In this document: positions 38,673-47,170 of the stretch, piece by piece | Layout of the letters: every line of letters starts with the position of its first letter | How positions within the stretch are numbered: the first letter of the stretch is position 1 | DNA from: Terriglobia bacterium | GTDB taxonomy: Bacteria; Acidobacteriota; Terriglobia; Terriglobales; Acidobacteriaceae | Length of the DNA: 58,823 nt | NCBI GenBank assembly: GCA_020073015.1 | Contig: JAIQFZ010000041.1 | Location: 1-58,823, forward strand | Direction of reading: 5' to 3' | Made by a program: the position numbers and the translations under genes | Notes under the pieces: generated by a model | Seen by the model: only the letters and a program-made list of their open reading frames with translations | Told to the model about the DNA's origin: nothing | The model's database searches: none

Positions 38673-39152
38673 ATGAAGGGTCTGCGACCGGCCAAGAGGA
38701 CCATAACCGGAAAGGTGCTGGCGGGCGCCGCGCTCGTCGCGCTGGGCAGCACTGTGGCCTGGTGCGCTGCGGCCTTCTCGCAGAGTGTGGTTCCGCTCCG
38801 CACTTCACTGGCCCAGCGGGAACAAAACCTGCACCGCATGCCCGTGCATATCTCCGAGTTTTCGCTGATTTCCGAGCCGCACGCCTGGTCGGGCTGTGGA
38901 GAGGTTCGGCCCCCAGAAGCCTTGCTCACTCCAGACCCGCTGCTGCAGCTTCAGGATGACGGCCTCCCCGTACGGGTCAGCTTCATTGTGGGTTCCGATG
39001 GGCACGTGCACAGTGCCTTCATCCTCGACAGCGGCGGACCCTACCGGGACCAATTGATCCTGCGCGCGGTTCGCCGTTGGCGTTATCGCCCAGCACTCTG
39101 CAACGGGGTTCCGACCGATTCCGAAGCCCGCGTGCGATTCGCCCTCCGCTAA
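38673..39152 (+). CDS. Short TonB-type C-terminal domain protein
   Basis: A 159-residue protein with an N-terminal anchor or signal (LAGAALVALGSTVAWCAAAF) and a C-terminal TonB fold: VRVSFIVGSDGHVHSAFILD, then AVRRWRYRPALCNGVPTDSE. It lacks the proline-rich spacer of a true TonB, so it may not span the periplasm, and instead could bind a receptor or serve another periplasmic task. Three cysteines outside the signal (for example WSGCGEV and ALCNG) might form a disulfide. It lies next to the zinc-ribbon/NTF2 gene on the same strand (39 bp gap). Confidence 0.8.
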   Translation: MKGLRPAKRTITGKVLAGAALVALGSTVAWCAAAFSQSVVPLRTSLAQREQNLHRMPVHISEFSLISEPHAWSGCGEVRPPEALLTPDPLLQLQDDGLPVRVSFIVGSDGHVHSAFILDSGGPYRDQLILRAVRRWRYRPALCNGVPTDSEARVRFALR

Positions 39153-39191
39153 GTTGACAGTTTCTCCTACAATGGCATCGGTGAGGTGCAC

Positions 39192-40121
39192 GTGAGCCCA
39201 GAGAATCCGAATCCTCCAGACGCAGAAAAGGATCAACCGGGGGAGAACCGCGAGCTTGAGGAGTTCTTTCATCGGCTCCCAGCGAACTTTCGCTGGCCGA
39301 AGCCGAACGACGAGGCGATTGCCGCGGCCATGGAAGCGATCCAGCGCATGTCAGGCGGTGTCGCGGGTGCAGAACTCGCGGTGGGCGGCGGCACCGAGGG
39401 GAGTGCGTGCGAGGGATGCGGCGGCTTGCTGCCGGCGGGGGCACGGTTTTGCGTCTGGTGCGGTGTGCGCACACAATCGGATCGGTCAGGGGAAACAGGG
39501 GCTGCTCCCCAGCCTCGGGCCGGTGAGCAGCACCATTATCACCATCACTATCACCACTTCGTCCCGGCGCAAGCCAACGGATCCGCGGCGTCCCTGGCCG
39601 AGCTGGACACGTCGGCACGACGGGGTCGCGCTCCGGTTCCGGGTTCTACTCCCGGCTCCACCGGTGGCCGAGCGGAAGCGTCCGCTCGCCAGGTAGCCCA
39701 GGATTGGGCCCAGGCTTGTAACACCAAGCACATGGATGATCTGCTGGAACTCTACGCTGCCGACGCCACCCTGATCCGTTCCAGTGTTCCGCCGGTTCGG
39801 AGTCTTTCCGCCATCCGTGAGTTTCTGTTTTCACTGCTCGAGGCCGGGCTGGGCGATGTCGAGATGGAATCGCTTCGCACTGAGGTGATGGGCGAGATTG
39901 CCATGGACATCGGTCGCTGCAAGATGCTTGTGCCCGTCGCCATGGGCAAGCGCAGGGAAGAGCGTGGGAAATATCTGCTTGTCCTGGTCCGCCAGCCCGC
40001 CGGCACCTGGAAAATTATTGCCGATTGCTGGTCCGCCGACTTGGCCGTGAGTGCGCCGCCCGTTCCGGACGCTAGCAGGAAGGGAATGGAACCAAGCTTG
40101 CCGGCACGCAAGCCCCGCTAA
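39192..40121 (+). CDS. Zinc-ribbon and NTF2-like (SnoaL/DUF4440) fusion protein
   Basis: A 309-residue protein. A four-cysteine ribbon stands near 72-92 (CEGCGG...RFCVWCG). A histidine cluster (HHYHHHYHHF, near 113-122) follows, then a Ser/Gly-rich linker and an NTF2-like domain at about 165-295 (QVAQDWAQACNTKHMDDLLE, YAADATLIRSS, TWKIIADCWSAD). The NTF2 part resembles SgcJ/EcaC-like and ketosteroid-isomerase-like domains. There is no signal, so it is cytosolic. The start is a GTG at 39192 behind GTGAGG; a GTG at 39186 is possible. It converges on the DUF3179 gene with two bases between stops. Confidence 0.8.
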   Translation: MSPENPNPPDAEKDQPGENRELEEFFHRLPANFRWPKPNDEAIAAAMEAIQRMSGGVAGAELAVGGGTEGSACEGCGGLLPAGARFCVWCGVRTQSDRSGETGAAPQPRAGEQHHYHHHYHHFVPAQANGSAASLAELDTSARRGRAPVPGSTPGSTGGRAEASARQVAQDWAQACNTKHMDDLLELYAADATLIRSSVPPVRSLSAIREFLFSLLEAGLGDVEMESLRTEVMGEIAMDIGRCKMLVPVAMGKRREERGKYLLVLVRQPAGTWKIIADCWSADLAVSAPPVPDASRKGMEPSLPARKPR

Positions 40122-40123
40122 CC

Positions 40124-41137
40124 TCAGTGGCTGTACACCGTGGTTTGCGGATGGTAGTTCTTCCAGTCGAACCAGAAGTCTTTCAGAAAATTGATTTTCT
40201 CCAGGCACTGCCCGGTCGCGGGCCCACTGACCGCGCAGCCCTCAAAATTCCAGGCGCTACCATCTGAGTCGATCAGCCGCTCCTCCGCACTTTGCGGATC
40301 GCGGTAGAGTTCAATCTCCGATCCATTCCACTGCCGGCGAAAGGCTCGTGCCGATACGCCGTCCTTCCCGGTCACGAGCACGACCGGAATGCCCGCAATC
40401 TTGTCCTCGATCGGACTCTGTTTGAGCACGCGCTCCAGAGGAAATGCTCGCGCCTGTCCGCCCATCTCAATTCCCAGAATCACATCTCGATCCTTCAGCC
40501 CCTGCCCAGGAAAACTCACCGGGACCGGATATTTCGCAACTTCCTTCTCCCAGTCGTTGTCGTAGTCCTTCTCGCGACCAGCGACCGGAGCCAACACAAC
40601 GCCGTGCGGCGCGCCTGACTTCCAAAGTCCGAAAGACAGCTCGTCATAGGGCGCCAGTTCCAGCATCGCGCCTGCCAGCGGCCCGGAAATCGCCCGGCCT
40701 GTGACCTGCTGCCACCAGGAGCCGGTCTCGCGGTCGCGCATCAGAAAATTCTGGTTGTTGATCCCGGCGAGATAGAAATGTAATTCGCGTCCCTGCGCCG
40801 TCCGTTTCCACACCAGACCGGTGTGACAGAGCGTTCAATAGGTGACGACGATCGGCACCGCTCCCACCACGTCATTCAGAATGTGATGGTACGCCATCTG
40901 CCGGATCGGGTAGGCCCGCGCGTCCGGTCCCATCTGCACCGTCATCACCATTTCTTTGTCGGAAAGATGCGCATCGCCCGCCGCGATGAATCCGGCCGCC
41001 TGAATGGGCCGGAACATCCATTCAAAATAGTTCAGGCGAACCATGACTGCCGAACCTGCACTCAGCACCATGGCCGCGACCAAGCCGGTCCGCGCCATGC
41101 TGGAGGCGGTTCGCCACCGACTCAGGCAGAGCACCAA
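40124..41137 (-). CDS. DUF3179-family protein with in-frame TGA at its CxxC motif (candidate selenoprotein)
   Basis: Read through one TGA at 40835-40837 the frame gives about 337 residues. Before it come membrane helices and LNYFEWMFRPIQAAGFIAAG, MAYHHILNDVV and VPIVVTY. After it come TLCHTGLVWKR, RDRETGSWWQQVTGRAISGP and, in the second half, AFPLERVL, FEGCAVSGPATGQCLEK and FWFDWKNYHPQT. These are the marks of DUF3179, whose members have Cys where the TGA falls (VTYC-x-x-C). No frameshift accompanies the TGA. A hairpin with loop GGUCU begins 8 nt behind it. Selenocysteine (U-T-L-C) is the attractive reading; a Cys-to-stop mutation is the alternative. The 5' end is also disturbed. Start uncertain. 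Confidence 0.62.
40808..40826 (-). promoter_or_regulatory. SECIS-like hairpin behind the in-frame TGA
   Basis: On the coding strand, (T)CACACC-GGTCT-GGTGTG(G) forms six Watson-Crick pairs plus one U-G pair. The apical loop begins 16 bases after the TGA. Known bacterial SECIS elements place a short loop with G in its first two positions about 16-37 bases after UGA; the E. coli fdhF loop contains the same GGUCU. The stem also encodes the family-conserved H-T-G-L-V-W, so codon preference could create part of it by chance. Confidence 0.5.
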
Positions 41138-41250
41138 GACTGGTAGCGGAACGGCCGGATCACGAACGCCGGAATCAGAAAGAGTCCAACCCCCGCCACG
41201 GTCAGCAGAAGGACCAGAGCTTCCAGAACGCTATTCCGAGCCTTGGACAT
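41122..41250 (-). pseudogene. Probable detached N-terminus of the DUF3179 gene
   Basis: ATG 41250 opens a 42-codon frame: a polar start, one strong membrane helix (LVLLLTVAGVGLFLIPAFVI) and RPFRYQSW, then TGA at 41122. The DUF3179 frame begins in this overlap one frame over. The helix is what I would expect at the N-terminus of these proteins, so a deletion or frameshift between 41122 and 41165 may have split the gene. A separate small membrane protein translated with the main frame is the alternative. Confidence 0.45.
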
Positions 41251-41329
41251 GAACGGCAAAACTCCCCACGGTACGCAATGATGTTGAGGATACCATCCCC
41301 AGGAATTTAAGGTGGCCGTTGTCTACCCG

Positions 41330-41362
41330 AAAACAAAAGCCCCGATCCTCGCGGATCGGGGC
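41330..41362 (-). terminator. Intrinsic terminator of the pseudopilin operon
   Basis: GCCCCGATCC (41339-41348) pairs with GGATCGGGGC (41353-41362) around a four-base loop. On the minus strand it runs into TTTTGTTTT. It stands 25 bases behind the stop of the PilX-like gene. Confidence 0.9.
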
Positions 41363-41386
41363 GGCTTGGGTTGGTTGAGTTGACGT

Positions 41387-44300
41387 TTAGTATGTGCGAG
41401 CCGTGAAGAGTTGCCGGTAGCCCAGGCTGTCGACGTCGCGGAACAGCGGCGTTCCCGGCGGCAGGCCTGCGGGCAAGGCGAAATCCGAGTCGAAACTGTA
41501 ATTACGCGTGGGTGGCGAATATACGGTGGTGCAACACTTGTATATCCCGGTGTTGTATGTGGCGTAAAACAGGTTGACCAGCGAGCCCTTATAATTCAGG
41601 GTTTGTCCGCCCCAGTTTTCCAGGTAGCGCAGGAAGTTGTGTACACCTCCGTCGGTGCCCATATCTTGCGCACCCCAGCCCGGCTTCGGGAAAGTCATGT
41701 TCTTCCCACCGGCAATCGCAACGCGGTAGTAGGTGTTGGTGGCAACCCGATTCGCTGGGTTGGTAACAGTGCTCGTGCCGCCGATACCCAAGCTTTTCCT
41801 GTCGTCCCAGCTGTTCGAGAGGACCGTGACGGCGTCGGCGATGATAGCGGTAGCCGCGTGCCCGGCCTTATCCGCGCCGCCGCCCCAGGCGGTGTCCGTG
41901 GAGTTAGAGTTGTAGTCGCCCTGAATGTACACCGGGTTCTCCGACGCTACCGTGAATCCGCCGGTGTTCGGTGCGGCCGCGTCCGTTCTCAGGGGCACGT
42001 TGCCGAGTGATCCATCCACCAGCTTCAGTGCGTGGCGGGCCCCGCTGACCCAGTTTTTGCGGGCCGTGGTACTGCAACTCGCAATCCGGTTGCCGGCCGC
42101 GGTGCCATAGGGATCGTCCGGGGCTGCGGCGACGATGACGGCGTTCAGGTTCTGGGTCGGGCTGGCTTGTGTACCGTAGAAGCCTAATCCCAGATTGGCG
42201 GCTCCGAAGTTGTCCAACACGCCGTTCTGATTAACGTCCTCGGGCGAATAGGCTGTGTGGCCGGCCGATTTCGGTTCCAGCAATGCGTTGGGTGTACCAG
42301 CGGCACTGGCGGAGTTAATCACGTCTTCCAGGCCGGAGTCTCCGCTCTTCGTGTTGGCCTTGTTCGGATTCGGCAACATTCCGCGGCGATCCGAGAAATA
42401 CAGCACATAGCCGTTCTGGGTCAGGTAATCGACATTGCCGCCGTTCGTGCCAATACTGCCCTTCAGCCATCTCTTCAAGTTGCCCACGTCGATTTCGACG
42501 GCATTCATCACGCCGTTGACCGTGCAGCTGTTGTCAGCCACAGTATTGTCACGGGCCTCGCCTTCGCGCGCATCGTAGAAGTTGATGGGGTACCAGTTGT
42601 CACGGGCCTCGCCTTCGCGCGCATCGTAGAAGTTGATGGGGTACCAGTTGTACTGCGTGATGCTCTGGGCCGCCGGTGGGGCGCCGGCATTGTAAGTGCC
42701 AAACCGCCAATTGCCCCCTGCTGCATCCGCCGCAACCTCCGGTGCAACGCCCCCAGTCCAGGTTTGGCAGTATGCCTTACCACTAACCGTTTTCGTGGCG
42801 GTACAAGCTGGGGGAGTCCCGGTGGAGTTTAGCGCACCGTCAACATTCCGATCCGCAGGTTCCTGAAGCAGCAGAATCGCGTCCGGGTTCACATCGTTGC
42901 TCCCGGCAGCCGCCGGCGAACTGCCTCCCGGGGCGGTGGGAGAGGTTAAGTCCCGGGCAAAGCCGAGTTGCAGCCATTCCATGGTTACCGGGTGCCAGTT
43001 GCCCGCAGCATCCTTGTATTCCACCCGCAGGTAGCCATCGATGAGGTTCCAGTTATTGGAGCTGGCCGAGTTAGAAGGCGCTGCTCCGTTGGGCAGAGCG
43101 TAATACGGATACGTGCCAAGAGTCGCTGGACAGTTGGCAGGAAACGCGGGCGAGTAAAGCACTTTGGTCGCATCAAACACCGCGGCCGGCGGACAGAGGC
43201 TAATCGCCGGGGTTCCGTTATTCGCGTAGATTGGGGCACCCGCCGGTTGCAGCAGGGTTGCTCCCGTCCACGGCGCAGGCGCATTCGCCCAGTCGGAAGA
43301 AGTGCAGGCGGTGCCCGCGCAAGTGCTCGGCAGCGGGACCGCGTTCGACGCGGCGGCGAAGTAGGTCACATACGAGGATCCCGCCGGCGGCGCCGGCAAG
43401 CCGGCTGGGACCGAGGTCGCGATGCCAAACTGGTTGCTTGGAGTGGCTCCGCCGACGTTCGCCAGCCGGACGTTGTTTGCATCCGCCGCGCCGCCCGGCA
43501 ACTCTGCCGGATCGTCGGACAGCAGCACGTGAATCTGCGCCAGATTATATTCTCGCGATGCGCCCAGTGACGACGTGGCCGATTCGCCGGTCTGCGGCCG
43601 GCGAATAATTTCGTAAGGGAATAGCGTGCCGCTCACGAAGGGCAGCGAGAGCTTCTTGGCGCCCGTTCCGCCCGCATTTCCGTAGTTGCCATCGATAATA
43701 TCGCCGTTGTAGTAGCTCGAGGACAAAGAAACCGTGTTCCAACCCTGAGGAGAGGGCGTAGAGGTGTTCTGGCCCGACTGCGGCGGGATTCCACCCGCAC
43801 CCGTCACGCTGCCCTCCGACAGCCCGAGGGCTCGGCAGTGCGGCTTCGCTCCGTCACAACCCGCCGGTTGGGTCGGAATCTGTACCGTGCCGTTATATTG
43901 GGTGCCCGGGGGAAACCCATTGGCCAGATTGGCCCGAACCACGTTGCCGTAGACCGACACCTTGTCATGAAAAGTCAGGGTGCTGCCTGGCCCGACGAAG
44001 GGATACAAGTCCTGGTTGGTGTGTACGCGGCCGGCGAAATCAAAATCGGGACCGCTAAAGAACGAGAGATCGTTCTCCGAGAACACGCCGAACTGGAACA
44101 CCGGAATCAGCGCCACTTGCGCCTGCCGTGTCATGCTGACTTCTTGTCCGCCCGGTTCGGCCGCCGTGGCCAGCATGGTGACTGGAATGATCTGCGCCCA
44201 CAAGCCCTGGTTCGGTCCCGCCGTGATCTGCCCAAACTTCGCGGTCAGGGGACCCGAGCAACCCGAGGCCGGCGTCACCGAGTAGTCCTTCCACGTCACG

Positions 44301-44575
44301 CCCGGCATGGAGGGTTGCAGGGTGCCTAGGTTGCAGATCTGGCTGGCGGTGGGCGACTGCGCGTTCTGGAAGGTGGCCGCCAGGTTCGCGCTCATGTTCT
44401 CGATTCCACCCTCGGCGGCATGGTAGGCCGCGTTGTTCTGCAGATCCGTTCCGCCCACCCTGCTTTCGGTGTTCACCATCATCATCAAACCGATCGCGAT
44501 GCCCGACAGCAGCAACAGCAGCAACAACGACGCGATCAGCGTGAATCCTGGTGAATGATGTCTCATGCTCTTCAT
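41387..44575 (-). CDS. Large PilX-like protein of a type IV pilus minor-pseudopilin operon
   Basis: A 1062-residue protein. The N-terminus has a type III (prepilin) signal: a short basic leader, HHSPG|FTLIASLLLLLLLSG and a long helix, as in PilX. The position-5 Glu of normal pilins is an Ala here. A large extracellular part follows (GPDFDFAGRVHTNQDLYPFV, DVNQNGVLDNFG, TNTYYRVAIAGGKNMTFPKP). This gene is typically found as the last member of acidobacterial minor-pilin operons, in the place of PilX/PilY1. The start at 44575 follows GGGGGAG. A 17-residue segment, NWYPINFYDAREGEARD, is duplicated in tandem near residue 660. It may help in pilus initiation or adhesion. Confidence 0.82.
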   Translation of the reverse strand: MKSMRHHSPGFTLIASLLLLLLLSGIAIGLMMMVNTESRVGGTDLQNNAAYHAAEGGIENMSANLAATFQNAQSPTASQICNLGTLQPSMPGVTWKDYSVTPASGCSGPLTAKFGQITAGPNQGLWAQIIPVTMLATAAEPGGQEVSMTRQAQVALIPVFQFGVFSENDLSFFSGPDFDFAGRVHTNQDLYPFVGPGSTLTFHDKVSVYGNVVRANLANGFPPGTQYNGTVQIPTQPAGCDGAKPHCRALGLSEGSVTGAGGIPPQSGQNTSTPSPQGWNTVSLSSSYYNGDIIDGNYGNAGGTGAKKLSLPFVSGTLFPYEIIRRPQTGESATSSLGASREYNLAQIHVLLSDDPAELPGGAADANNVRLANVGGATPSNQFGIATSVPAGLPAPPAGSSYVTYFAAASNAVPLPSTCAGTACTSSDWANAPAPWTGATLLQPAGAPIYANNGTPAISLCPPAAVFDATKVLYSPAFPANCPATLGTYPYYALPNGAAPSNSASSNNWNLIDGYLRVEYKDAAGNWHPVTMEWLQLGFARDLTSPTAPGGSSPAAAGSNDVNPDAILLLQEPADRNVDGALNSTGTPPACTATKTVSGKAYCQTWTGGVAPEVAADAAGGNWRFGTYNAGAPPAAQSITQYNWYPINFYDAREGEARDNWYPINFYDAREGEARDNTVADNSCTVNGVMNAVEIDVGNLKRWLKGSIGTNGGNVDYLTQNGYVLYFSDRRGMLPNPNKANTKSGDSGLEDVINSASAAGTPNALLEPKSAGHTAYSPEDVNQNGVLDNFGAANLGLGFYGTQASPTQNLNAVIVAAAPDDPYGTAAGNRIASCSTTARKNWVSGARHALKLVDGSLGNVPLRTDAAAPNTGGFTVASENPVYIQGDYNSNSTDTAWGGGADKAGHAATAIIADAVTVLSNSWDDRKSLGIGGTSTVTNPANRVATNTYYRVAIAGGKNMTFPKPGWGAQDMGTDGGVHNFLRYLENWGGQTLNYKGSLVNLFYATYNTGIYKCCTTVYSPPTRNYSFDSDFALPAGLPPGTPLFRDVDSLGYRQLFTARTY
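42546..42651. repeat. 51-bp perfect tandem duplication inside the PilX-like gene
   Basis: The unit 42546-42596 is repeated without a mismatch at 42597-42647, and four further bases match. Being 51 bp long, it adds exactly 17 codons and keeps the frame. Perfect identity suggests a recent event or gene conversion. Confidence 0.95.
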
Positions 44576-44629
44576 GGTCGAACTCCCCCGTGTTGATCCC
44601 TGGCGTGTTGGGCCCAAGGCCAGTTCCCA

Positions 44630-45763
44630 CTACTGCGGATAGTCGTTCTTGAACGTCAGATCTCGTGCGCTGACCGATGTCTGTAAATCCAAACTCTGAT
44701 ACCCGCCCTTGGCCCCTTTCAGAGTGCTGTTCATGGCCATGTGCAGGATGTTGATCTTGGTGATCTGGCTCGGAGTCAAGCCCTGCGACGCGCCACCGTC
44801 CGCCTGGTTCGGCAAAGCGGCCGCGGTGGCGGAGTTGTACAGGTCATAGCTGAACTGCAGATACACGACGTTCTCTGCGACCGGCATCGGGGTATGCCCG
44901 CTCACCTGCCGCATGAGCCGCGGCGGACTGATCGTGTTATCGATGTAATAGGTGATGACCAGAAGGCGGTTGGCGAAACCGGTCCAGCCCACGAATGTCT
45001 CGATTGCCCCGCCTGTGGTGCCGGTTTGGTTCATCCTGAGCGCGTCCGCCGTGCCGAAGGTGACGTTGTAGGTATTGGTTCCCGCAGTCGCAACGTTGGT
45101 GACTTCTCCAATCACCGGCGCCGTCGTGGCTCCCGAGCCGGAGCCGGTCGTAACCGTGAACCAGACCAGATCGCCCGGTGTAAGCCCAACCACCGAATCA
45201 TTGACGTCTTGCGGGGCGGTGACTCCGGTCGGCAAAACACAATTTGCCGGCAGAGGTGAATTCAGCTTGAATTGCACGACCGTTGCGCTGCTCACAGTGA
45301 CCGAGTAGCAATTCAGAAAAAAACTCGAGTCCGTATAGACCACCGTGACGGTGTCGGTGGCCGGCTGCGAGGCGTTCATGATCGGGCCAAACTTCCATCC
45401 CGGCATGAGTCCGTAGAGATACGGGTTCCCGCCCTGGGTTGGATACGCAGCCCCCGTGCCGTTGAGATAGCAAGTCGTCTGACTGCAGCCATACACCGGC
45501 AGTGTCCCCGTTCCGGCCGGCAATGCGATCTGTACGTTGTTTCCCAATCCCGAGCCCGCCAGGCTGAGGTCTCTCGTCAGCATGTCCGCGGCCGCGCGAA
45601 AATCCTGCTGCATCTCCGCGCGCTGGGAAATCGTCCACGTCGCGTTCACGCCCTGACTGTAGAGTTGGACCGCCGCGCTCAGCACGACCAGGCCCAGGGC
45701 CATCGCCACCATCATCTCGATCAGGGTGAATCCACGTTCGCGTGTTCTTGAGCGAGAGCGCAT
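44630..45763 (-). CDS. pilW: PilW-type minor pseudopilin
   Basis: A 377-residue prepilin with leader RERG|FTLIEMMVAMALGLVVLS; Glu5 is present. The following ~340 residues include RAEMQQDFRAAADMLTRDLS, typical of PilW, and beta-rich modules. Peptidase cleavage after the Gly and methylation of the Phe are expected. Third in the operon, 16 bp behind pilV and 54 bp ahead of the PilX-like gene. Minor pilins of this set prime pilus assembly with the PilBCMNOPQ machinery, which is not in the window. Confidence 0.88.
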   Translation of the reverse strand: MRSRSRTRERGFTLIEMMVAMALGLVVLSAAVQLYSQGVNATWTISQRAEMQQDFRAAADMLTRDLSLAGSGLGNNVQIALPAGTGTLPVYGCSQTTCYLNGTGAAYPTQGGNPYLYGLMPGWKFGPIMNASQPATDTVTVVYTDSSFFLNCYSVTVSSATVVQFKLNSPLPANCVLPTGVTAPQDVNDSVVGLTPGDLVWFTVTTGSGSGATTAPVIGEVTNVATAGTNTYNVTFGTADALRMNQTGTTGGAIETFVGWTGFANRLLVITYYIDNTISPPRLMRQVSGHTPMPVAENVVYLQFSYDLYNSATAAALPNQADGGASQGLTPSQITKINILHMAMNSTLKGAKGGYQSLDLQTSVSARDLTFKNDYPQ

Positions 45764-45778
45764 ATTTCCTCTTTGTCG

Positions 45779-46372
45779 TTACCGGAACTGCGAAATAAAC
45801 GAAGTTAGAACATACGTCTTAGCCACGCCCAGCCGGGGAGTCGTGTACTGGACCGTGACGTTGATGGCGCGCAGGCTCGCCACCACATTTCCGTTGGTGT
45901 CGAGTACGGGTGAAATCACGACCTGGCGCTGATAGTTACTCAATGGCAAATGCACATCATCCGAGGTCCCATAAATTCCGTCTGAGCCTGGTTCGGTCAA
46001 CATCTGCGGCCCGGCCGTGGCATCATCGGTTGTCCCCACAATTCCGTCGGCGCCGGCCAGGTTGATCGGCTGAAGCGCGGTGAGGAAAATTCCCGTACCA
46101 CTGCCCACATTCTGTACTTGGTCCCATTGCAACTGCGAAGTGTTGCGCGCGGTGACAATACTCTCCAGCGCTTCGTTGGCTAACTGTTTCGCAATCATGT
46201 CCTGCTGCGAAGTTTGCGTGGCCGCCATCGCCAGCCCAAAGACCCCCAGAAGACTAACCAGCCCGATCGTGAGCACCGCCATCGAGATCACGACCTCGAT
46301 CAGCGTGAAACCGCCCGCCGTTGGCGTTTGCACTCGATGACTTCCGCCGCGCCTGGCTATTGACGTAGCCAT
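45779..46372 (-). CDS. pilV: PilV-type minor pseudopilin
   Basis: A 197-residue prepilin with leader TAGG|FTLIEVVISMAVLTIGLVSL and the usual PilV follow-up (AATQTSQQDMIAKQLANEAL). Glu5 is present. The rest carries Asp-rich turns (GADGIVGTTDD, SDGIYGTSDD) that look like calcium-binding loops. The start at 46372 follows AGGAGG and overlaps the end of the FimT gene by 16 bp, so the two are translationally coupled. Confidence 0.88.
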   Translation of the reverse strand: MATSIARRGGSHRVQTPTAGGFTLIEVVISMAVLTIGLVSLLGVFGLAMAATQTSQQDMIAKQLANEALESIVTARNTSQLQWDQVQNVGSGTGIFLTALQPINLAGADGIVGTTDDATAGPQMLTEPGSDGIYGTSDDVHLPLSNYQRQVVISPVLDTNGNVVASLRAINVTVQYTTPRLGVAKTYVLTSFISQFR

Positions 46373-47028
46373 TGATAGCCTCCTGACCCATTGCTGTACA
46401 AGCGCCAGCCACGAATGCGGCCGGTCCCGCCCCACACCGTGATGGCGCGCGAACTCGTCAACTCTCCCGGGCGCGCAATGTAAACCACCCCGCTATTCCA
46501 ATTCCCGGCACAGTTCCCAGCCCCGTTGGTTGCGTCCTGCGCCGTGCCGTCCGGGCAGAAATACAGATCCGTCGCTCCCCCGGTACTTGTTCCTTGAGGC
46601 TTGTAGCCAAAGTCAATCGGCGCCGTTCCCGAACCGAACCCATCCGGAGTACTGCCCGTTGGAATTCCCGCCAGGGCGGAGAATGCGACATCGATCGGCA
46701 ACGCATAGCTCACCGTATTCTGCGCGCCTTGAAACGTAGAGAGTGTTGGAGACACTGTGATCGTGTCCGACGTCGTGGTGTGGGTGAATTGCACGTGGTA
46801 CGACGTGCGCTGCGCCACCGCGTTGTCGCGGGCTTGCCGCAACGCTCCCATCGTGGTGTTGTACGCGTTCGTGACGCGTTGCGCTTTCAACGACGGTTGC
46901 AGGCTCATGAACCCAATCGACGCCATCACGATCACGAGCGCCATCACCATCGCCATTTCCAGCAAGCTGAAGCCGCTGGCTCGATGCCGGCCCTGCTCTG
47001 GATTGCATCTCAGGTTTGTCATTCTCAT
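46357..47028 (-). CDS. FimT/GspH-type pseudopilin
   Basis: A 223-residue prepilin with leader RASG|FSLLEMAMVMALVIVMASIG; Glu5 is present. The C-terminal domain follows the GspH/FimT course (YNTTMGALRQARDNAVAQRT to the end) and carries a Cys pair (LYFCPDG, GNCAGNW). It is the first gene of the operon. The start is an ATG at 47028, with a second ATG at 47022. Upstream lies a GTACCGGGGTAC palindrome and the putative promoter. Confidence 0.87.
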   Translation of the reverse strand: MRMTNLRCNPEQGRHRASGFSLLEMAMVMALVIVMASIGFMSLQPSLKAQRVTNAYNTTMGALRQARDNAVAQRTSYHVQFTHTTTSDTITVSPTLSTFQGAQNTVSYALPIDVAFSALAGIPTGSTPDGFGSGTAPIDFGYKPQGTSTGGATDLYFCPDGTAQDATNGAGNCAGNWNSGVVYIARPGELTSSRAITVWGGTGRIRGWRLYSNGSGGYQWLRQ

Positions 47029-47170
47029 TCGCCGATCCCAGTGGCTGTTCCTGTGAAGGTCGTCCACAATTCTTGACTCAACTCCACGCAATACGGCCTC
47101 GCTTCGCTACCCTTTGGAACCGAGGCGTAATCAGCTTTTAATGGTAGGAACCTTTTGGGGATGGGTCAAA

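Follow-up and report, generated by a model that had tools for sequence, protein, structure and literature searches.

What does it mean when a bacterial gene carries an in-frame TGA exactly where its protein family has an invariant cysteine; has the gene been broken by a nonsense mutation, or is the codon read as selenocysteine (Sec)? The question is raised by a DUF3179 gene on the minus strand of a 58,823-nucleotide stretch of DNA from a soil bacterium of the Terriglobia (contig JAIQFZ010000041.1 of assembly GCA_020073015.1), which was analysed as a whole and is referred to here as the window. A plain list of open reading frames splits this gene in two at its TGA, which means that a protein of this kind in Acidobacteriota can be overlooked or called broken. 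A first-pass annotation, made from the letters of the window, had proposed that the TGA replaces the first cysteine of the CxxC motif of DUF3179 and gives a selenoprotein, and had left open whether such a form was new; judging from the available parts of two reviews, it had already been described (see the last section). Comparison with relatives indicates that the window's DUF3179 gene is very probably a selenoprotein gene in an acidobacterium. The best joint explanation, which we consider likely, is that UGA is decoded as Sec by means of a SECIS element together with SelA, SelB, SelC and SelD, and that the product is a DUF3179 selenoprotein that presumably acts as a periplasmic, Rieske-like selenol enzyme.

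The TGA codon and its counterparts in relatives

The DUF3179 coding part (40124-41098, minus strand) is taken to begin at an internal ATG, ends with the TGA stop at 40124-40126 and would encode 324 residues with one Sec, at residue 88; the ATG at 41098 is a candidate start, the region 5′ of it being disturbed. The TGA that would be read as Sec88 lies at 40835-40837 (minus strand), at the position that comparison with homologs gives as the family's invariant cysteine. The minus-strand frame reads ...ILNDVVGAVPIVVTY-[TGA]-TLCHTGLVWKR..., with a recoded site of V-T-Y-U-T-L-C-H-T-G, and Cys91 (40826-40828, minus strand), the second residue of the U-x-x-C motif and a candidate resolving cysteine, is found at 98 of 98 TGA loci. 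The coherence of the frame across the TGA, which had been seen at first pass, was borne out: the frame 3′ of the codon stays open for 236 codons, up to the second TGA at 40124-40126, and Pfam family PF11376 matches on both sides of the internal TGA, spanning it with 215 bits (cut-off 27; model positions 10-292 of 292). A search of the whole genome gave a single DUF3179 match, that of the window's gene, at 208 bits and with '1 TGA' inside. With an E limit of 10, no NCBIfam model was listed for either the window protein or that of L068, one of the window's nearest relatives, and a sequence search of solved structures with the window protein likewise returned none at that limit.

Which codon do relatives have at this site? 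Among 120 genomes of the window's family, its own genome included, DUF3179 was found in 21, and the family search gave 20 loci with a readable site, 18 with TGA and two with TGC. A scan of named genomes, covering the best 80 of 158 relatives, gave TGA in 80/80 loci, a rate that is biased because the peptide patterns of the scan were taken from the window protein and favour the Sec type, some TGC relatives not sharing them; the record titles of these genomes are those of groups that we take, in part from general knowledge, to belong to Acidobacteriota. The two sets together have TGA at 98 of 100 loci, a count in which some genomes appear twice, the 20 own-family loci and the 80 named ones sharing identical rows. 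At two loci, L104 and L112, a decoy was matched before the true TGA. In another genus of the window's family, TGC occupies the site in all eight further loci, which brings the TGC loci known to ten, two from the family search and eight from this genus; the extra set from which they come held 15 stretches, of which 13 sites were read (eight TGC, five TGA), L162 giving a decoy only and L164 no site. TGA and cysteine codons are thus paired at one column among relatives, as had been proposed, and the case in which relatives would have TGC or TGT and the window's strain alone TGA is excluded by the TGA in relatives. As a separate observation, nine other acidobacterial DUF3179 loci (L046, L048, L050, L056, L057, L059, L063, L064 and L067) likewise carry TGA at this position, in the form U-P-L-T/V/A/C, and six of these nine are without the second cysteine.

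The sequence beyond the TGA has been kept as protein. Against the four nearest relatives (L068-L071, 77-79% identical), dN/dS 3′ of the TGA is 0.10-0.16, and against four more distant relatives it is 0.19-0.26; in the former comparison, 88-107 of 236 third codon positions differ, versus 28-41 at each of the other two positions. By these measures, the DUF3179 part after the TGA is under purifying selection.

The hairpin after the TGA and the selenocysteine machinery

Directly 3′ of the UGA, comparison of the loci points to a bacterial SECIS (40808-40826, minus strand) with the stem (U)CACACC / GGUGUG(G) and the loop GGUCU. Since own-family and named loci overlap, the hairpin was counted on 88 distinct windows of the 98 TGA loci. 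Of these 88, 86 have the apical loop GGTCT and two have GGAAT, and each of the six core pairs is retained in 85-88; the innermost C-G has become G-C in L108 and L146, a compensatory swap, and L090 and L105 each break two of the six core pairs. The codons of the hairpin, +4 to +8, have a codon entropy of 0-0.32 bits over 86 rows, versus a mean of 1.69 bits and a minimum of 1.29 for 42 other conserved four- and six-fold columns in the same rows. For two-fold columns, His at +4 has 0 bits and 31 others have a mean of 0.86 and a minimum of 0.32, the latter at Tyr -1; low codon entropy is also found at Tyr -1 (0.32) and Thr +1 (0.28). With its synonymous positions nearly fixed, the hairpin is, on this comparative evidence, under selection at the RNA level. 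Folded singly, the window's hairpin is unremarkable (z -1.3, with 20 of 200 shuffles equally stable), and so the case for a SECIS rests on comparison.

How does this hairpin fit what is expected of a bacterial SECIS? The criteria given in the available part of PMC13188914 are a loop of 3-9 nt with a G within its first two positions, a stem of 4-16 bp, a spacing of 16-37 nt and a minimum free energy of at most -7.5 kcal/mol. The window has a 5-nt loop, GGUCU, that begins with GG, on a stem of 6-7 bp, and the 45-nt stretch folds at -15.7 kcal/mol; the spacing from UGA to loop is 15 nt if GGUCU is the loop or 16 nt if the inner G-U is closed, which places it at the short edge of the model. Rfam, run over 39000-42000, gave six matches, every one under its gathering score. 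At TGC loci the loop is less constant: the two own-family TGC homologs have GGGCT and GGACT, and GGTCT is kept in one of the eight further TGC loci. Among TGA loci beyond the 88, L158 has the loop GGAAT and L159 the loop GGCGT; altogether, GGAAT or GGCGT replaces GGTCT at L127, L147, L158 and L159, and these loops are possibly matched to a different SelB.

The genome from which the window comes, a draft of 245 contigs that is 99% complete, holds the machinery that decoding would require. Its best match to tRNA-Sec (selC) scores 71 bits, with the anticodon tca in ARAGORN, and a second match, at 47.3 bits, is barely above the cut-off of 47; SelB is found at 374 bits, above its cut-off; SelA lies in two pieces on two contigs, the larger of which is above the cut-off; and SelD (G000 C228:15600-16586, locus L149) is present with one in-frame TGA, which makes it probable that SelD is a selenoprotein too. 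In 14 well-known genomes used as controls, the SelB cut-off was passed in two and is thus discriminating, and the tRNA-Sec model gave weak matches in all 14 and passed its cut-off in five. The computational checks named in the first-pass annotation, namely an alignment of homologs (98/100 loci TGA, and ten TGC loci at the same column), a search for selA, selB, selC and selD (all present) and a SECIS check, which was made against the published model rather than with a SECIS program, have in this way lent support to its selenoprotein reading.

The distribution of SelB adds a further strand of evidence. In the window's family, all 18 TGA genomes have SelB above the cut-off, and it is absent at that level from the two own-family TGC genomes (2/2); no SelB was found at E 1e-70 in the eight genomes (8/8) of the TGC genus, whose DUF3179 has no stop. 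That genus has nine genomes with a DUF3179 match, of which a weak one (G454) was left out, and the 18 TGA and 10 TGC genomes are related to one another and so do not amount to 28 independent events. SelB is also found in 12 of 15 tested family genomes without DUF3179; being common there too, SelB alone predicts little. In a wider sample of the phylum, SelB was found in 39 of the 44 genomes whose DUF3179 match contains a TGA, versus 24 of 36 without. These 44 TGA and 36 other genomes were hand-picked among the matches listed, from 133 with a DUF3179 match; for most of the 44, the TGA was placed within the DUF3179 match, its position relative to the Sec site unread, and the 36 are single-match genomes. 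SelB was not found in five of the 44, three of which are 63-75% complete and two 93% complete, and with misses in two such complete genomes the link between Sec and SelB is an imperfect rule in the wider phylum. G420 (locus L050) and G452 are both about 93% complete, with an in-frame TGA in the DUF3179 match and no SelB found; the missing SelB may reflect an assembly gap or a recent loss.

A tree built from 82 of 132 rows and rooted at midpoint places the acidobacterial subfamily in one clade (100/100). Five of its rows (L045, L072, L093, L135 and L159) were picked at a wrong motif, and four of them have very long branches. Nine of the subfamily's ten TGC rows form one clade (97/90) among TGA rows, with L031 apart. 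This arrangement, read on a midpoint root only, suggests that Sec was replaced by Cys together with the loss of SelB; lineages without SelB would then have retained the protein with Cys instead of Sec. Sec with SECIS and SelB on the one side, and Cys where SelB was not found on the other, offer a natural test of what selenium contributes.

The 5′ end of the window's copy and its neighbourhood

The 5′ end was described as disturbed at first pass, and it is: relative to L068-L071, a stretch of 76 bases that would fall within the N-terminal membrane region is missing from the window at 41137/41138, and the frame is shifted. An out-of-frame remnant of the N-terminal membrane part (41122-41259, minus strand; ...LFLIPAFVIRPFRYQS...) resembles the start of intact relatives, and the window's copy may be broken or misassembled. 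As a separate observation, the adjacent pilus-type gene (41387-44617) contains a perfect 51-base tandem repeat of 2.1 copies at 42546-42651 that duplicates a stretch of its protein; the region with this repeat and the adjacent 76-base gap may be unstable or misassembled.

Does this lesion speak for decay, and decay of what? A TGA that arose from TGC or TGT by nonsense mutation in a decaying gene would go well with a frameshifting gap of 76 bases in the 5′ part of the window's copy, and the lesion had been cited at first pass as making that course of events less far-fetched. The lesion is not seen in the four nearest relatives, L068-L071, and so does not count against Sec in the family. Since the TGA itself recurs in 98/100 loci, the codons after it evolve at a dN/dS of 0.10-0.16, the hairpin is under selection at the RNA level and the genome has the full Sec machinery, we regard a nonsense mutation as extremely improbable here; for the family, the conserved TGA, dN/dS and the codon constraint in the hairpin rule it out. 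A narrower reading, in which the family is a selenoprotein and the window's copy has recently been broken, leaving a pseudogene without a complete membrane-anchored product, deserves more weight, and we consider it somewhat unlikely. The N-terminal frame does stop out of frame at 41122, and translation of the DUF3179 part would have to begin internally, for instance at the ATG at 41098, leaving by eye one hydrophobic segment; against this, the remaining gene is under purifying selection and has kept a consensus SECIS, and the lesion is a single gap in a draft of 245 contigs, for which an assembly error is as likely as a real lesion.

The surroundings of the gene were compared in 81 loci, the window and 80 others that differ in length, with neighbours judged by eye from their translations and the window entered with a one-base offset; no neighbour cluster occurs in more than 26/81. 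The most frequent are a regulator-like gene (26/81), a zinc-ribbon-like gene downstream on the other strand (22/81), a gene for a large secreted-looking protein (22/81), pilus-type genes upstream on the same strand (17-23/81), a gene for a short secreted-looking protein on the other strand (19/81) and, downstream on the same strand, a HAD-like hydrolase by eye (18/81, ten of them within 2.5 kb; not in the window), which was noted about 1.3 kb past the DUF3179 Sec codon. Among these frequent neighbours in the 81 loci, no hint of a redox partner or substrate was seen by eye. In the window, a run of pilus-type genes lies upstream of DUF3179 on the minus strand (41387-47100); in L069 and L070 as in the window, a terminator-like hairpin can be made out by eye between them, and so the pilus run and DUF3179 are probably not one operon.

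Predicted fold, possible function and known systems

What kind of protein would use this Sec? Six residues are invariant over 38 acidobacterial DUF3179 rows, near-copies included: His71, Cys/Sec88, Gly112, Asp122, Trp129 and Gly139. The second cysteine is replaced by Thr, Val or Ala in nine of the 38. Because it varies, the shared centre would be one Sec or Cys plus a His, with U-x-x-C confined to some branches, the window's among them. In relatives with an intact start, three hydrophobic segments are predicted before the DUF3179 part (5/5 N-termini checked), and these N-terminal helices would anchor the protein in the inner membrane with its N-terminus inside and its DUF3179 part in the periplasm.

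An AlphaFold2 model of the window protein, made with 60 aligned sequences, has a mean pLDDT of 88.9, and a model of the first half alone has a pLDDT of 89.8. The domain is internally duplicated, with hhalign aligning repeat 1 with repeat 2 at a probability of 99.4 and E 8.3e-22. The first predicted Rieske-like beta domain (residues 57-156; 40631-40930, minus strand), supported by the AlphaFold2 models and VIA-align, carries Sec88; the second (residues 206-315; 40154-40483, minus strand), assigned by hhalign and its Rieske match, has no Sec. In VIA-align, residues 57-159 of the full model match the NirD-like 3c0d (Z 9.3, rmsd 3.8, 96 aligned), residues 57-156 the ferredoxin 2qpz (Z 9.1, rmsd 3.1, 92 aligned) and residues 211-309 PetC3, 5cxm (Z 8.4, rmsd 2.6, 91 aligned); for the first half modelled alone, the best Z is 8.3 (3gce; rmsd 3.0, 95 aligned). 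By title, the 50 entries that were listed for this single domain are Rieske ferredoxins, Rieske oxygenases, other Rieske proteins, NirD, an arsenite oxidase B chain and bc1 complexes; in the last, the matching chains are taken to be the Rieske subunit. In Foldseek searches of the PDB, the Rieske rows had probabilities of up to 1.00, yet E-values above 0.001, with nothing at E 0.001 or under; for the full model, its first two rows are unrelated chains with probabilities under 0.1. Against eight Rieske proteins, the repeats also score weakly by sequence (repeat 2, probability 19 and E 0.0012; repeat 1, probability 0.2). Because of these Foldseek E-values and the modest Z of 8-9, we rate the fold as likely, short of proof: the models point to DUF3179 as, likely, two Rieske-like domains that lack the cluster ligands, since neither repeat has a C-x-H / C-x-x-H pair and hhalign, in its register for repeat 2, has an Asp where motif II has its Cys. 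A placement of the Sec at the Rieske cluster position, which the fold matches had suggested, was dropped, as the hhalign register puts U-x-x-C in the turn that precedes motif I. In the model, Sec88 sits in a turn between strands 81-88 and 93-98. Judged by strand order, this turn would share one end of the domain with His71 and the 114-117 turn, remote from the loops that formerly held the cluster.

From these features, we infer that the protein functions as a periplasmic selenol redox enzyme. Sec88 would sit in a tight turn, close to the Asn-Asn-Gln-Asn turn (114-117) and to His71, which is invariant; most likely, His71 would activate the Sec88 selenolate, which would attack an oxidised or electrophilic substrate. 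The resulting selenenyl intermediate would be resolved as an Se-S bond by Cys91 in the window's subfamily and by an outside thiol in relatives without the second Cys, and the enzyme would be re-reduced by a periplasmic thiol system. The most specific version of this picture, a membrane-anchored periplasmic oxidoreductase built on a duplicated, cluster-less Rieske fold with its Sec(Cys)-His pair at the opposite end of the barrel, is one that we put forward tentatively, as possible rather than probable. Were it true, an iron-sulfur site would have been dropped in evolution, and there would be a selenol oxidoreductase outside the thioredoxin fold, the fold used by the majority of known prokaryotic selenoproteins.

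Both parts of this picture, the chemistry and the fold, face an alternative. Sec88 might instead be a metal ligand, with His71/His72, Cys91 and His92, which would make DUF3179 a metalloprotein or metal carrier and not a selenol redox enzyme. The invariance of Cys/Sec88 and His71 in 38/38 rows would suit such a role, as would the cluster that the matched fold holds in Rieske proteins and the several branches of the family without a second Cys, which mean that a UxxC redox pair is not general. The Sec turn, on the other hand, would lie away from the Rieske ligand loops, a placement that carries a weakly supported hhalign register over from repeat 2 to repeat 1, and we think the metal role unlikely; the exchange of Sec for Cys where SelB is missing is compatible with metal and redox roles alike. 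As to the fold, the Rieske match may reflect a common beta arrangement, a reading to which the Foldseek E-values above 0.001 and a Z close to the level often reached by models without a clear match give some room. That the 50 single-domain entries listed are Rieske-type, NirD, arsenite oxidase B chain or bc1 chains and that both repeats match Rieske domains separately argue for the Rieske-like fold, and a DUF3179 part that is not Rieske-like seems to us rather improbable. The selenol redox enzyme remains our preferred reading, and, taken together, the fold prediction and the invariance of Sec and His give DUF3179, a domain of unknown function, an active site that can be tested.

Each DUF3179 repeat resembles Rieske ferredoxins and NirD (2qpz, 3gce, 3c0d, 4aiv) in predicted fold and differs from them in having no C-x-H / C-x-x-H ligands, in occurring as tandem copies and in carrying its Sec/Cys in another turn. 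The SECIS of E. coli fdhF is a hairpin after the UGA with a GGUCU loop, and the window's hairpin is like it in both respects. Compared with the published bacterial model (PMC13188914), the window's loop begins 15-16 nt past the UGA, and the range of the model is 16-37 nt.

The kind of selenoprotein itself is already known, from the listings in reviews and from a RefSeq name. PMC9312934 and PMC13188914, in the parts available, list a DUF3179 domain-containing protein (pfam11376) as a prokaryotic selenoprotein of the type UxxC/T and credit it to Zhang and Gladyshev 2007, from an Olavius algarvensis symbiont; the word 'Acidobacteria' is absent from the main text of both. The available part of a 2025 paper gives three known selenoprotein genes for the acidobacterium Occallatibacter riparius, and that of a 2006 paper four selenoproteins of three families in Acidobacteria, and DUF3179 may be among those counted. 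Among the matches listed in our literature search, at the level of listings, no paper dealt with the acidobacterial subfamily or with a Rieske-like fold of DUF3179. In the haloarchaeon Salinirubellus, a plasmid (NZ_CP147842.1) encodes a product that RefSeq names 'DUF3179 domain-containing (seleno)protein'; it is of the same family as the window protein and its name allows for Sec, but it is archaeal, 30% identical, and known by annotation rather than by its codon. What we add is the acidobacterial subfamily with its predicted membrane helices, its SECIS, the switch between Sec and Cys with SelB, and a likely fold. As far as the available parts of PMC9312934 and PMC13188914 describe it, the listed DUF3179 selenoprotein and the window's share the Pfam family and the UxxC site, which in the window is U-T-L-C with Sec at the U, whereas the acidobacterial subfamily is set apart by its U-[TS]-L-C-H motif and its predicted N-terminal membrane helices.
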